A DNA stretch of 64,000 bases from an uncultured Nitrospira sp. (lineage in GTDB: Bacteria > Nitrospirota > Nitrospiria > Nitrospirales > Nitrospiraceae), in contig CABVRZ010000003.1 of assembly GCA_902500775.1 (NCBI GenBank), positions 88,622 through 152,621 on the forward strand, read 5' to 3'. Below are positions 31,009 through 41,893 of this stretch, in pieces. Under the pieces are notes generated by a model. The model made no database searches. It worked only from the letters and a program-made list of their open reading frames with translations, and was not told where the DNA came from. The first letter of the stretch is position 1, and every line of letters begins with the position of its first letter. The position numbers and the translations under genes are program-made.

Positions 31009-32028
31009 ATGAATCGCTCATTGTTCGGTTGTGGATTCGGCCGTGGCAGAGGCTGTTCTGGTCTCATCGTCTTCTGTTTGATGAGTCTGGGGCTTAGTTT
31101 CTGGACTGGATGCAGTGAAACCTCGTTGACGGTCTCCCATGTTGATCTGGAACCGTTCACCGCCTATCAGCAGCTTGCTCGCCTGGAAGTGACGTCGGAT
31201 CGCTTATTTGAGGTGATTGCGGCTCAGTCAGATGCCGCAGGATATAGTCGTCTGCTCGAAGCTCAGTCCGGCCTGTCAACGCCATTGTCGTTGACCGATA
31301 CTGATCGAATTGAGCAATCGTTTGTGCATTCGCTCAAAGTCATGCTCTTTGATCTCGCGCCGACGAACTTCTGGGAAAATCATCTCGCGGAATACTATGA
31401 CACCAGATTGCCTGGCGATGAAGCGCAGGCACTGCTGGCACGGTATGCCGAAGAGAGTGTGTCACAGTCGTCCAAGCTCCAAGACCTGCGCGAGTCGTTC
31501 ATTAAAGACCGCTTGCCGGAGCTTTTGCCGGTGGTGCGTGCGCGGTCTCAGATCTACCAGACTCCTAGCCAGGCGATGGAACCGACCGTATTACCCGGTG
31601 ACCACGTCATTGTACATCAGGTTGCGTATCAGGCTGCTGAGCCCCAGCAGGGGGATGTCGTCGTCTATCGCTATCCAGACGAGAATGGAAAACGGTTTCT
31701 CCATCGCGTGATTGGGCTCCCTGGTGATCAGATTGCCATTCGTGATCAGGTGGTGTACCTGAATGGTGAGGCATTACCGGAGCCCTATGCTCGCCATTCC
31801 GACCGCTCCAGTATGGCCGGACATGTCCGAGACCATCTTCCACCGATTACGGTTCCACTTGGGACCTACTTCCTCATGGGTGATAATCGGGAGGAGAGTT
31901 TAGATAGCCGTTTTTTGGGGCCAATCAGCAAGGATCATGTGCTAGGACGGGCGCTGTTTATCTACTGGTCGGTGAGCCCTGACTCACATGCTCCACGATG
32001 GGAGCGGCTCAATCAACTCGTGCGCTGA
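31009..32028 (+). CDS. Signal peptidase I-like protein lacking catalytic Ser and Lys
   Basis: 339 residues from ATG 31009, with GGAGGGAAG immediately upstream. The N-terminal ~45 residues are a hydrophobic export signal with a possible lipidation Cys (SFWTGCSE). Residues ~50-180 are an extra helical region not found in standard LepB. The S26 domain follows: AMEPTVLPGDHVIV, RVIGLPGD and MGDNREESLDSRFLG. In active signal peptidase I the first motif is SMxPT and the Lys lies before RxxGLPGD. Here the Ser is Ala189 and the Lys is His232 (FLHRVIGLPGD), so both catalytic residues are gone. It probably is not a peptidase; it may bind a peptide or partner. It is followed 72 bp later by a SpoIIE-type regulator. 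Confidence 0.85.
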   Translation: MNRSLFGCGFGRGRGCSGLIVFCLMSLGLSFWTGCSETSLTVSHVDLEPFTAYQQLARLEVTSDRLFEVIAAQSDAAGYSRLLEAQSGLSTPLSLTDTDRIEQSFVHSLKVMLFDLAPTNFWENHLAEYYDTRLPGDEAQALLARYAEESVSQSSKLQDLRESFIKDRLPELLPVVRARSQIYQTPSQAMEPTVLPGDHVIVHQVAYQAAEPQQGDVVVYRYPDENGKRFLHRVIGLPGDQIAIRDQVVYLNGEALPEPYARHSDRSSMAGHVRDHLPPITVPLGTYFLMGDNREESLDSRFLGPISKDHVLGRALFIYWSVSPDSHAPRWERLNQLVR

Positions 32029-32100: not shown

Positions 32101-34878
32101 GTGTTGGGAATCTGTGACCCGCTGCTTGCAGTCTGTTCGATGTTACTCGGTGGTGCAGCGTCCTACGTCATCCTCAGCATTGCCGAACGGATGCGTGCCC
32201 CTGACCAAGGGCAGGCCACGATCCGATGGTTGTTTATTGGAGCTGTTGCAGCCGGCCTTGAGATCTGGGCCATGCATTTCATCGGGAACCTCGCCTTTTG
32301 TCCAAGTGCCTCGGCGACCGAAGATGCAGGCCTTGCTATACTCTCATTGCTCTCCGCCGGAGCAACCGGAGCCATTGCTGTCTATGTGATCAGCAGTCAC
32401 GTTGAGGGCTGGATGCGGCTCATCTCTGGGGGCATGCTGATGGGGGCGTGCATGAGTCTCACCCACGTGGCCAGCACCATGGCCGTGCACCATCCGATCG
32501 ATCTCCAAGCTATTCTTCTTCCGTTTGTCTATTCGGTCATCGGAATCGTTGTGCTCAGTGTGATCGTCACCGTAATCGGAGGATGGAATATCACCTACGG
32601 TGGTTGGCGAGTGACGGAAAAGGCAACCGCCATGGGGTTCGCCCTTGCCGGGACACATCTCATCGGGTTAATTCCGATGTACGGAATGGGAGATGTCGCG
32701 AGCCGTATTCAGCCACCGGCCATCGACGTTGATCTGCTTGCGGTCGTCGCCGTGTCGCTTTCCACCCTCCTAGCCATTATCGATCGCCAAGTGACGAAGG
32801 CCTCTAGGCTGGCTCGTGCGAGTCATGCTCGACTGATTGAGGCCATCGAAAGCGTTCCGCAATGGTTCGCATTGTTTGACGTGGACGATCGTCTGGTCAT
32901 CTGTAATCGCAAATATCGAGAAGTCATGTCCGGGACTGGGGCTCAGGTTCAATCCGGTGACTTCTTTGAATCGATCGTGCGCCGAACGGCCGAACGCGGC
33001 GATATCCCGGCCGCGATGGGAAATGTCGACCCCTGGATGCGCTGGCGTCTTGAGATGCATCGCAATCCGGTGACACCGTACATTCAGCATCGGTCCACCG
33101 GAGAGTGGCTGCAAATCAATGAGCGGAAGACCCACGATGGCGGGATCGTCTTTATTGCCACCGATATTACGGCGTTGAAAAATGCCGAACAGGCGGCCGA
33201 GGATGCCAAGGCACGGTTAGCGGATTCGTTAGCCCTGGTCGAGGCCGCGAAATCCCGTATGCAGGAAGAATTGAATGTTGGTCGTGATATTCAGCTCAGC
33301 ATGCTCCCACGGGTATTTCCTGCCTTCCCTGATCGAAAGGAGATCGAGCTGTACGCGGTGCTTGAACCGGCTCTGGAGATCGGCGGCGATCTCTACGATT
33401 TTTTCCTCGTCGATCAGCATCGGCTGTGTTTTGTTATCGGAGATGTGTCGGGCAACGGAGTCCCTGCCGCGCTGTTTATGGCCATGACAAAAATCATGGT
33501 GAAGACCAGAGCAGCCTCTGATCCCTCGCCCGCCAGTATCGTGACGCATGTGAACGATGCGTTAAGTGCCGAGAACGATAGCTGCATGTTCGTCACCTTA
33601 TATCTTGGCATCTTGAATCTCCGAGACGGCACGCTGGTGACAACCAATGCCGGCCATAATCCGCCCTTATTAAAGCGAGGGAATGGAACGTTCGAATGGC
33701 TGACGGCTCAAGATGGGCCCCTCGTCGGTCCTATGGCAGGCATTGCGTTCAAGGAAAGCACGATTCAGTTGGAACCTGGTGACGAACTCTTTCTCTACAC
33801 CGATGGAGTCACGGAAGCCGACAATAGGAGGCGCGAACTGTTCGGCAAGGATCGGCTGAAAATGGTGCTGGGTAAATCACGGGCCCTTTCGGTGGTCGAT
33901 CGTTTGGGGGACGTGATGCAGGCGGTACGGGTCTTTGCGGGTGACGCGCCGCAGGCCGACGACATTACCATGCTGGGATTGCGCTATCACGGCATCACTC
34001 CCTCTGATGTTGCGACGCGAATCTTTCGACGGACGATGCCCAACCAGTTGGAGGCCATTCCAGTCCTCCAGATCGCCTTTGAGGAGTATGTGGCACAATG
34101 GGAAGGAGCCAAGCCGTTGATCCCCACACTCAATATGGCGCTGGATGATCTGCTGAACAATGTGGTGCAGTATGCCTTTCCCAACGACCCGACGGAGCAT
34201 CACATCCATGTGGAAGGTGATGTGCAGGATGGGTGTGTCCTGCTGACTATTACGGATGACGGCATTCCCTTCAACCCTTTAAGCGCCGCTCCTCCAGACC
34301 TTTCCTTGTTGCTGCATGAACGAGAAATCGGCGGGTTAGGGATTCATCTGGTCCGCTCCATGTTTGACGAAGTCACATACCACCGCAACGTGGGACGCAA
34401 TGTGCTGACGGCGAAGAAGAAACTGGTATCCGAATCGTCTGTCCGCGGTCAACGTGGTGATACGACTCGAATTGGCGCGAGTGATGTCGAGAAGCAGCCA
34501 CCCTCACTGTCTCACGCGCCGGTAGGCGTGGGGATCCATGTCGAATCAGGTCGACGCGGGAATGTGGTGATCGTAATGCCGCGCGATCGCTTTGACACGA
34601 ACAGCGCACCGGAGGTCGAACGGATTTTAATGGACCACATCGAGAGCGGCGAACGTCGGATTGTGTTGGACCTCTCCCGTATTTTGTACATATCCTCGAT
34701 TGGATTGCGGGTAATTCTAAGGGCTGCCATGGTCATGACCAGAATGGGCGGAAGACTCGTGCTCTCAGGGGGAAACGAGCAGGTTCTCACAGTCCTCCAA
34801 TTGAGTGGAGCCTTGATGATGAGTCTCCATGCCGCAACTTTAGAAGATGCCCACTCAAAGGCCCAAGAGGATGGGTAA
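32101..34878 (+). CDS. MHYT-PAS-PP2C-HATPase-STAS membrane signalling protein
   Basis: 925 residues from GTG 32101, with GGGAG 7 nt upstream. Residues 1-225 form seven membrane helices of the MHYT sensor type; the motif histidines survive as WAMHFIG (H59), LTHVAS and GTHLIG, though the Met/Tyr/Thr positions vary. A PAS domain (~245-360) follows, then a coiled linker, then a SpoIIE-type PP2C phosphatase (~393-625; GRDIQLSMLP, EIGGDLYDFF, GDVSGNGVPAALFM). Next is an HATPase_c domain of the RsbW anti-sigma kinase type (~640-785; LDDLLNNVVQYAF, DDGIPFNP), and finally a STAS domain (~805-925) with the phospho-Ser region YISSIGLRVIL. All components of a partner-switching circuit are thus on one chain. 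A stand-alone STAS gene follows. Confidence 0.9.
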   Translation: MLGICDPLLAVCSMLLGGAASYVILSIAERMRAPDQGQATIRWLFIGAVAAGLEIWAMHFIGNLAFCPSASATEDAGLAILSLLSAGATGAIAVYVISSHVEGWMRLISGGMLMGACMSLTHVASTMAVHHPIDLQAILLPFVYSVIGIVVLSVIVTVIGGWNITYGGWRVTEKATAMGFALAGTHLIGLIPMYGMGDVASRIQPPAIDVDLLAVVAVSLSTLLAIIDRQVTKASRLARASHARLIEAIESVPQWFALFDVDDRLVICNRKYREVMSGTGAQVQSGDFFESIVRRTAERGDIPAAMGNVDPWMRWRLEMHRNPVTPYIQHRSTGEWLQINERKTHDGGIVFIATDITALKNAEQAAEDAKARLADSLALVEAAKSRMQEELNVGRDIQLSMLPRVFPAFPDRKEIELYAVLEPALEIGGDLYDFFLVDQHRLCFVIGDVSGNGVPAALFMAMTKIMVKTRAASDPSPASIVTHVNDALSAENDSCMFVTLYLGILNLRDGTLVTTNAGHNPPLLKRGNGTFEWLTAQDGPLVGPMAGIAFKESTIQLEPGDELFLYTDGVTEADNRRRELFGKDRLKMVLGKSRALSVVDRLGDVMQAVRVFAGDAPQADDITMLGLRYHGITPSDVATRIFRRTMPNQLEAIPVLQIAFEEYVAQWEGAKPLIPTLNMALDDLLNNVVQYAFPNDPTEHHIHVEGDVQDGCVLLTITDDGIPFNPLSAAPPDLSLLLHEREIGGLGIHLVRSMFDEVTYHRNVGRNVLTAKKKLVSESSVRGQRGDTTRIGASDVEKQPPSLSHAPVGVGIHVESGRRGNVVIVMPRDRFDTNSAPEVERILMDHIESGERRIVLDLSRILYISSIGLRVILRAAMVMTRMGGRLVLSGGNEQVLTVLQLSGALMMSLHAATLEDAHSKAQEDG

Positions 34879-34883
34879 GGAGG

Positions 34884-34905
34884 CGAGAGAGGTTTGTCTC
34901 TCTCG
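34884..34905 (+). terminator. Hairpin after the signalling gene
   Basis: CGAGAGAG (34884-34891) pairs perfectly with CTCTCTCG (34898-34905) around a 6-nt loop, 5 nt after the stop codon. It has no U tract; it may be a processing or termination stem between the fused regulator and the STAS gene. Confidence 0.35.
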
Positions 34906-35016
34906 GGCAGCCGATATCGGGCCGGTGGATCCAAAGGCGTATCGCTGCTATCATATGAACACTCGGAACCCAGCTCGGGTTCCGTGCCCAATGCTTACTA
35001 TGTATGGAGGAGAATG

Positions 35017-35400
35017 ATGGACCAAGGAACCCGACACACATTGACCGTCACGTCCCACGACAACGCGGGAATTACTTTCGTGAAGATGCAGGGCAGCCTC
35101 TCCGCCACAACCGCTGAACACGGCAACAAGGAGATGAAGAAGGTGTTGGATCACGGGGCAAAAAAGGTTGTGTTGAACTTGGCTGATGTTGACTATATCA
35201 GCAGCGGGGGGATCCGAGTCCTCATTCTGGCCTCAAAGGAGTTGAGCGCGGTTAAAGGCCAGATGAAGATTGCGGCAGCAAAAGGGATGGTTAAGGAAGC
35301 GCTCGAGGCTAGTGGATTCCATCTGCTGAACCGTGTGTACGGAAGCACCATTGAGCTCTGTAGTACAGAGGAACAAGCGGCTGCAGCCTTTACCAGCTAG
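35017..35400 (+). CDS. STAS-domain anti-sigma factor antagonist
   Basis: 127 residues from ATG 35017, with GGAGG 6 nt upstream (ATG 35014 is the alternative). A single STAS domain: GITFVKMQGSLSATTAEHG, KVVLNLADVDYISSGGIRVL with the phosphorylatable Ser of the YISSGG motif, and a helical end. Anti-sigma antagonists bind an RsbW-type kinase when dephosphorylated and are reset by a PP2C phosphatase. Such kinase and phosphatase domains are both in the upstream 925-residue protein, so this is a natural substrate. It is likely to be in the same regulatory unit. Confidence 0.9.
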   Translation: MDQGTRHTLTVTSHDNAGITFVKMQGSLSATTAEHGNKEMKKVLDHGAKKVVLNLADVDYISSGGIRVLILASKELSAVKGQMKIAAAKGMVKEALEASGFHLLNRVYGSTIELCSTEEQAAAAFTS

Positions 35401-35789: not shown

Positions 35790-36017
35790 TCACTCGAGTG
35801 CCGTCTTAACTGTTCGTATCCCTATCGTATACAGGATAGCTGGGTGACCTATGATTGTGTGCATTCATGAATAAGTTTTCATCTTCTCCTAATCCTCTCT
35901 TCATGTTGCGGGATTATAACCCTACACCAGGGTGAGCTGAGGCTGTGTGCACGTGAGTCGAAGCAATCATGATGCTACAGCGAGGGGTTCAGGCATATCG
36001 CACAAGGAGGATGCATG

Positions 36018-36338
36018 ATGAAAGATGTGACGAAGGGAGTGACGCTTGCTCCAGTGGTTCTTCCGACTCCATTGAGAGGGGAGTCTGGGCGGTTGTCACC
36101 TAATCATCTCTTAGAACTAGTGACCAGGTTGTGCCTCTTCAAGGCCGAGCGCTGGGGGCGTCGCGCGCTCTTTTATGAGAAACATCGTGACTATTTTCCA
36201 CGCTTATCCGTCAGTCGATTTGTGCATCGATGCCGTGCATTGGAAGCAAGGTATCGAGCCCTGGCTCACCTGATCTTCCTGGTCCCAGCTGATGAGCGCC
36301 TCGTTCCAGTTCGTGCGTTGGGTGCTCGACGAATCTAG
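36018..36338 (+). CDS. Small basic hypothetical protein
   Basis: 106 residues from ATG 36018, with AAGGAGG 7 nt upstream (ATG 36015 is the alternative). The protein is Arg- and Leu-rich and helical (LELVTRLCLFKAERWGRRAL, LSVSRFVHRCRALEARYRAL). The region has a faint resemblance to the N-terminus of IS4/IS982-type transposases, but nothing decisive. There is no signal peptide or membrane segment. The ribosome site makes it likely to be translated. Confidence 0.5.
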   Translation: MKDVTKGVTLAPVVLPTPLRGESGRLSPNHLLELVTRLCLFKAERWGRRALFYEKHRDYFPRLSVSRFVHRCRALEARYRALAHLIFLVPADERLVPVRALGARRI

Positions 36339-40753: not shown

Positions 40754-41893
40754 ATGACTGAGTGTCTCATGGCGTCGTATGAAATTAATGGGCCTGAGTC
40801 AAACGCTCGCGCCATAGCCGAGCGGATATGTCTGGATCAGACCATTGAAGGAGACGCAAGTTTGTTGGCGCCACCTCTCCAGCTACAAATCGTAGGGCGG
40901 CTTGAGCATCTGCGACCGACTTCTGCGGGGAGGTGTGAAGCGACGATTCGGTACGCCAGCGACCTGCTTAGTGGGGATTGTACTGATCTGTTGAACGTCT
41001 TATTTGGAACGAGCAGTTTTCGCGGTGATGTGACACTGTCATCTTTTACGCTGACGCAAGGACTCTTGTCTTTGTGGCGTGGCCCCCGGTTTGGGATAGA
41101 TGGACTTAGGTGTGCAGTCGATGTTGTCCATCGTCCGTTGCTCTGTGCCGTGCTGAAGCCGTTGGGGCGCTCTGCTCAGGAACTGGCCGAGTTAGCGGCG
41201 CAATATGTGGAGGGTGGGGTCGATATCATCAAGGACGATCAAAGCCTCGTCGATCAACCCTGGTGTCCGTTTGAGGAACGGGTGGTCCGTTGTGCCGAAG
41301 CGATTGGGAAAGCCAGTAGCCAGCGCGGTCGACCCTGCCTGTACCTTGCCCACATCAGTGGATCGTTAGAGGTCATGCGTCGGCGAGCGACACAAGCCAA
41401 GGCACTTGGCGCAACAGGACTGATGATGGCACCTGGGTTAACCGGCTTCGATGCCTTGAGAGCGCTTTCCTCGGATGAGACCGTGGTTCTGCCGATTGCC
41501 TGTCACCCGACCATGTTGGGGGCTTCAGTTGACCGTGGACGCGGAGGGCTGTTACCACGAGTGGCCTATGGACTCTTGCCTCGTCTGGCCGGTGCTGACC
41601 TCTCGATCTATCCTACATTCGGATCTGATTACCCAATGTCACAAGACGACTGTTGTTCGGTAGCAGACAGCTGTCGGCAATCGTGGGACCATATCAAGCC
41701 GATGATGCCGGCTGTTGGTGGGCGAGTAGGGCCTGAACGGATTTCTATACTTGGCTCACCGTTAGGCCGAGATGTGGTGTTGGTCTTGGGCAGTCGTATC
41801 CAGAAACATCCTGGCGGAGTCATCGCTGCAATAGAAGAATGTCTCCGTATGGTAACGACAGAGCGCTCATCCGATTGTCCCTCGACTTCCTAA
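40754..41893 (+). CDS. RubisCO-like protein (form IV)
   Basis: 379 residues, shorter than form I/II RubisCO large subunits. The TIM-barrel domain is recognised from AVLKPLGRSAQELAEL (K135, equivalent to Lys175), GGVDIIKDDQSL (K160, carbamylated Lys in RubisCO) and PIACHPTML (H251). The residue after KDD is Gln rather than Glu, the second Lys of the usual KPK motif is missing, and I see no loop-6 GKLEG motif. It therefore should not fix CO2. Form IV members act in methionine salvage or other enolase/isomerase steps, but the specific role here is unknown; no mtn genes are nearby. It follows an OPT transporter. Confidence 0.82.
   Translation: MTECLMASYEINGPESNARAIAERICLDQTIEGDASLLAPPLQLQIVGRLEHLRPTSAGRCEATIRYASDLLSGDCTDLLNVLFGTSSFRGDVTLSSFTLTQGLLSLWRGPRFGIDGLRCAVDVVHRPLLCAVLKPLGRSAQELAELAAQYVEGGVDIIKDDQSLVDQPWCPFEERVVRCAEAIGKASSQRGRPCLYLAHISGSLEVMRRRATQAKALGATGLMMAPGLTGFDALRALSSDETVVLPIACHPTMLGASVDRGRGGLLPRVAYGLLPRLAGADLSIYPTFGSDYPMSQDDCCSVADSCRQSWDHIKPMMPAVGGRVGPERISILGSPLGRDVVLVLGSRIQKHPGGVIAAIEECLRMVTTERSSDCPSTS

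Follow-up and report, generated by a model that had tools for sequence, protein, structure and literature searches.

The locus lies in a 64,000-nucleotide stretch of Nitrospira DNA, referred to here as the window, and consists of a long sensor gene on the + strand (32101-34878, 925 amino acids, GTG start with GGGAG upstream) followed by a small gene for a free STAS protein. The long gene encodes an MHYT-type membrane sensor, a PAS domain, a PP2C phosphatase, an RsbW-like HATPase and a STAS domain, all five of which exceed the curated cut-offs in a Pfam search (Table 1). The fused STAS domain is referred to as STAS1 and the free protein as STAS2. The Nitrospira orthologues of the 925-residue protein share 70-91% identity over its whole length (77-91% for complete proteins on contigs labelled Nitrospira sp.), and STAS2 is found behind the sensor gene in Nitrospira genomes wherever the contig is long enough, decayed copies excepted; because of this conservation and the regular presence of the free STAS gene, the long reading frame is not a chance frame. 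The first-pass annotation of this DNA, made from the letters alone, had described five modules on one chain followed by a free STAS protein, and this architecture is confirmed by Pfam and by conservation. A scan for promoters and terminators at the locus gave results no better than chance level.

Table 1. Features of the sensor locus: position in the window with strand, residues, and basis of the assignment
MHYT-type membrane sensor	32101..32820 (+)	1-240	Pfam MHYT, 22-sequence alignment, low-confidence AlphaFold2 model
PAS domain	32845..33192 (+)	249-364	Pfam PAS_7, 70.9 bits, E 1e-19
Long helix between PAS and PP2C, candidate coiled-coil signal linker	33166..33300 (+)	356-400	AlphaFold2 secondary structure
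PP2C/SpoIIE phosphatase	33415..33987 (+)	439-629 (Pfam); fold from ~410	Pfam, 171 bits, E 3.5e-50
RsbW/SpoIIAB-like HATPase	34039..34419 (+)	647-773	Pfam HATPase_c_2, 64.8 bits
Disordered linker, putative former intergenic spacer (kinase to STAS1)	34432..34536 (+)	778-812	pLDDT <50, junction compared with split genomes
Fused STAS1	34552..34848 (+)	818-916	Pfam STAS, 47.4 bits, alignment to SpoIIAA
Free STAS2 protein	35014..35400 (+)	127-128 aa	Pfam STAS, 58.6 bits

The free STAS gene is real, as judged by its Pfam score and its conservation, but the start listed for it at 34894 is over-extended: the start common to the relatives is the ATG at 35014 or 35017, which lies directly after GGAGGAG and ~135 bases past the stop of the long gene. 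The full-length AlphaFold2 model of the sensor protein reaches a mean pLDDT of 63, with confident folds for the PP2C, HATPase and STAS domains and a helical N-terminus of low confidence, and its closest fold match in the PDB is the RsbU-RsbW (PP2C-kinase) part of Rv1364c (3ke6). Modelled alone, the HATPase-STAS1 segment reaches a pLDDT of 86 and a pTM of 0.70, its linker being disordered, and matches the folds of SpoIIAB, RsbW and SpoIIAA.

On the input side, Pfam reports a single MHYT repeat (PF03707, residues 54-109, 31.2 bits against a cut-off of 21), and seven helices are predicted in the low-confidence model (7-31, 37-65, 72-99, 105-130, 134-167, 173-186 and 212-250). In an alignment of 22 Nitrospira orthologues, His59, His122, His186, Cys5 and Cys67 are invariant; the methionine of the MHYT motif is mostly isoleucine, and the three motif histidines are kept. 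The MHYT domain of CoxC from Afipia carboxidovorans senses CO via copper (PMC11347149), which by analogy makes a metal, gas or redox signal the likely input here, though most of the methionine ligands are gone. The earlier proposal of a metal or gas bound at the MHYT histidines thus finds a precedent, and the three invariant histidines fit such a sensor. CoxC, an MHYT-LytTR protein, has the membrane sensor domain in common with the Nitrospira protein and differs from it in its output, which is DNA binding. In RsbU and related phosphatases, a helical linker carries the action of the sensor domains to the PP2C dimers (PMC12143880), and in the same way the MHYT-PAS part probably gates the PP2C domain via the helix 356-400. 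A literature search found no paper combining MHYT, SpoIIE and STAS.

Relatives outside Nitrospira were collected by scanning bacterial genomes with two peptide patterns, the best 80 matches being a sample rather than a census and comprising 77 foreign loci from Clostridia, Bacteroidales, Synergistaceae, Desulfosarcina, Gammaproteobacteria and others. Among these best 80 matches, PP2C and HATPase lie on one chain at 68 of the 77 foreign loci, a free STAS gene is found within 1.5 kb on the same strand at 39, and the STAS domain is fused at none. The closest foreign relatives of residues 371-780 in this sample are pairs of a sensor-PP2C-HATPase protein and a free, often adjoining STAS protein (Clostridia, Bacteroidales, Desulfosarcina and others), and the nearest proteins from Nitrospiraceae other than Nitrospira (G350, G402, G372) likewise consist of sensor, PP2C and HATPase with an adjoining free STAS. 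Ordinarily, therefore, kinase and phosphatase share one chain and the STAS protein is separate. The same arrangement is described for HsbR of Pseudomonas (PMC5085249) and SypE of Vibrio (PMC10120452), which combine PP2C and HATPase on one chain and act on the separate STAS proteins HsbA and SypA; they differ from the Nitrospira protein in their receiver-domain input, in place of a membrane MHYT-PAS sensor, and in their unfused STAS. In Rv1364c of Mycobacterium tuberculosis, kinase, phosphatase and STAS are even found together on one chain (PMC9138534). The premise of the first-pass annotation that these modules normally reside on separate proteins is not supported by the foreign loci or by these three systems.

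Rv1364c, the best structural match, shares the PAS-PP2C-HATPase-STAS order, and its kinase and phosphatase act on Ser600 of its own STAS domain (PMC9138534; PMC10950880). However, no membrane sensor is described for Rv1364c, it has a glutamate at the position of the kinase base where the Nitrospira protein has Asp683, and its link to SigF has no counterpart in the Nitrospira protein, for which the search yielded no sigma partner; the second, free STAS adjoining the Nitrospira gene is a further difference. The parts are known, and what is distinctive at the level of sequence is the STAS1 fusion, found only in Nitrospira when compared with the 77 foreign loci, the second STAS behind it and the lineage-wide Asp683.

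The five-domain protein is encoded in one open frame in 40 of 79 Nitrospira genomes, while in others it is cut by contig ends or split. Runs of N break the gene in some drafts (L021, L029), and the fusion might itself be regarded as an assembly or frameshift artefact, but this has a negligible probability and is already refuted by the one open frame across the junction in the 40 genomes, among them the single-contig genomes G024 and G059. Eight genomes (G005, G015, G017, G063, G071, G072, G091 and G092) carry a split form, in which an MHYT-PAS-PP2C-HATPase gene precedes STAS1 and STAS2 as genes of their own, in this order; G092 was called split from its match pattern only, and in G005 the N-terminus is missing at a contig end. 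Between the end of the HATPase and STAS1 lie 195 bp in those fused genes that were compared, against 190-196 bp in the split ones, and a ribosome site with an in-frame ATG persists at the old STAS1 start within the linker of three fused genes (L009, L020, L026). Given the near-equal junction lengths and the leftover start, the simplest reading is that neighbouring genes were fused by loss of a stop codon and/or a frame shift. In these three genes a free STAS1 might also be made from the in-frame site; such an internal restart was rejected as a general feature, because a clear site is found in these three fused genes only, is absent from the window and is weak or missing in the rest. The split forms sit near the base of the tree, the basal branches of which are weakly supported, and the likely order of events, which for split before fused leans partly on outgroups, would begin with a PP2C-HATPase protein and a free STAS, continue with the appearance of a second STAS and end with the fusion of STAS1. 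Alternatively, the history may have involved more than one fusion, or a fission.

The two STAS domains differ in what they have retained. Ser866 of STAS1 aligns with the phosphorylated Ser58 of SpoIIAA, and the acceptor serine is present in 57 of 57 STAS1 sequences, with Asp832 also kept. In STAS2, Ser63 (counted from the ATG at 35017) aligns with the same SpoIIAA residue and is kept in 57 of 58 sequences, the remaining one having an X. At the position of the kinase-contact aspartate of SpoIIAA, however, which is Asp832 in STAS1, STAS2 has Ser in 42, Ala in 14 and Asp in 2 of the 58 sequences, and the aspartate is thus lost in STAS2 and retained in STAS1; among the short free STAS proteins near the foreign relatives (best 80 matches), 57 of 66 have it. 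These residues bear on the view that the locus is a plain three-gene operon reduced to two genes, where the fusion would fix stoichiometry and membrane location with the logic unchanged, STAS2 would serve as an RsbV-like output and STAS1 would be a neutral tethered copy. Such a view agrees with the eight Nitrospira genomes that manage without the fusion, with the near-equal junction length and with the leftover ribosome site and ATG in a few fused genes, but against it stand the Ser866 and Asp832 kept in the fused copies and the loss of the kinase-contact aspartate from STAS2 instead of STAS1, and we consider it unlikely.

In the catalytic domains, the metal-binding aspartates of the PP2C (Asp430, 448, 568, 620 and 621) are invariant in the 22 Nitrospira orthologues. 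The same holds for Asn687, the G1 motif DDG (719-721) and the G2 motif GGLG (744-747) of the HATPase, so that the N, G1 and G2 boxes, on which the first-pass interpretation depended, are intact on alignment. When aligned with SpoIIAB, Asn687 falls on Asn50 and Asp683 on Glu46. Glu46 of SpoIIAB acts as the catalytic base. Asp683 is found without exception in the 51 MHYT-type copies from Nitrospira, fused and split alike (one of them cut ahead of its sensor by a contig end), whereas the position is Glu in 69 of 69 PP2C-HATPase proteins from outside Nitrospira among the best 80 matches, and also in three other Nitrospiraceae, in the HAMP-sensor paralogue of G021, in G035 and in Rv1364c. The catalytic glutamate of a partner-switching kinase is thus replaced in the MHYT-type copies. 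Since the change is common to fused and split forms, it probably predates the fusion. It also makes it doubtful that the kinase is active; phosphorylation may be very weak or may not occur at all. A literature search on the effect of Glu-to-Asp in SpoIIAB or GHKL kinases returned nothing usable. Taken as a whole, the earlier interpretation is partly supported, by the five-module chain with its free STAS, the intact boxes and the MHYT histidines, and it overlooked Asp683 and the loss of the aspartate in STAS2.

From the architecture, the motif conservation and the likely history observed here, we infer the enzymatic activities, the signal and the direction of the circuit. The reading we prefer, to which we assign about an even chance, is a membrane-bound, signal-gated phosphatase/kinase with the tethered STAS1 as internal substrate and the free STAS2 as output. 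The seven-helix MHYT sensor, probably responding to copper/gas or redox, would act together with the PAS domain through the helix 356-400 on PP2C dimers and thereby gate the phosphatase. The HATPase would bind ATP and phosphorylate Ser866 of the tethered STAS1, perhaps slowly due to Asp683, and active PP2C would strip the phosphate from this residue. The phosphorylation state of STAS1 would then set the occupancy of the HATPase surface, and depending on this occupancy STAS2 would be held and modified there, or released to a partner. STAS1 is expected to be the internal substrate, in analogy to Ser600 of Rv1364c (PMC10950880). STAS2 is the only free output of the module, and it could have a target other than a sigma factor, as SypA acts downstream of the kinase SypE (PMC10120452) and HsbA binds FlgM or a cyclase (PMC5085249); STAS proteins of this type can be downstream outputs rather than classical anti-anti-sigma factors. 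In favour of this reading we counted the Pfam domains, the invariant motifs, both acceptor serines, the match to Rv1364c (3ke6), the SpoIIAB, RsbW and SpoIIAA folds, the layout of the relatives and the retention of STAS2, and against it Asp683, the Ser/Ala in STAS2, the loss of most MHYT methionines and the lack of a sigma factor nearby.

If the kinase were inactive, the HATPase could be an ATP-binding docking platform with STAS1 as its tethered occupant, and the protein a signal-gated phosphatase for a STAS that is phosphorylated by another kinase, e.g., the REC-HATPase on contig C29. This pseudokinase explanation draws on the contrast between Asp683 in all MHYT-type copies and Glu in the foreign proteins and the HAMP-sensor paralogue, as well as on the presence of a second kinase in the genome; yet the remaining kinase motifs and Ser866 are invariant, Asp is still able to serve as a base, and there is no sign of cross-talk with C29, so that we regard it as possible though rather doubtful. 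A related idea, which we judge improbable, is that with the Glu-to-Asp change the kinase of this one genus slowed down or ceased to catalyse and turned into an ATP-gated docking domain, onto which its own substrate was then welded as a built-in competitor; STAS2 would then be controlled by the occupancy of the tethered domain and the sensor-gated phosphatase, not by the balance of kinase and phosphatase.

The presence of both split and fused forms in a single genus constitutes a natural experiment on the effect of STAS tethering, and with the lineage-wide Glu-to-Asp change the need of partner switching for an active kinase can be tested simply. If the MHYT domain binds copper or a gas, the circuit would be tied to O2, NO or CO, of which at least O2 and NO would bear on nitrite oxidation. 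In the literature searched there was no account of such signalling in Nitrospira, and nothing relevant on SpoIIE or anti-sigma antagonists in this genus.

The search for sigma factors nearby, proposed in the first-pass annotation, found none adjoining the locus; 13 sigma-factor loci and one FlgM are present elsewhere in the genome. A conserved neighbour as effector was also considered, since a signal peptidase, a 107-amino-acid orphan, a DEAD helicase and an OPT transporter form a neighbourhood whose synteny extends to many Nitrospira; it contains neither sigma nor anti-sigma genes and was taken as chromosomal context. The signal-peptidase-I-like protein upstream of the sensor gene (window 31009-32028) has a long extra N-terminal part, and the 107-amino-acid protein downstream of STAS2 (36015-36338) has no Pfam or NCBIfam match and is conserved at 63-80% identity. 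A second partner-switching module of the same genome is located on contig C29 (L057 6676-9593) and consists of separate genes for STAS, REC-PP2C, a 123-amino-acid ORF and REC-HATPase. In the G021 paralogue (L066 7848-10358), which has Glu at the kinase base, a HAMP-type sensor replaces MHYT-PAS and a broken STAS1 lies behind. Truncated or decayed copies (L188 3549-5386, L185, L179) were also noted: G069 has an incomplete additional copy, the G064 copy is cut off at residue 484, and in G093 part of the MHYT domain is fused to STAS2. Finally, a RuBisCO-like protein adjoining the OPT transporter (40754-41893) is nearest to MtnW-type enolases, with scores well under the curated cut-offs.
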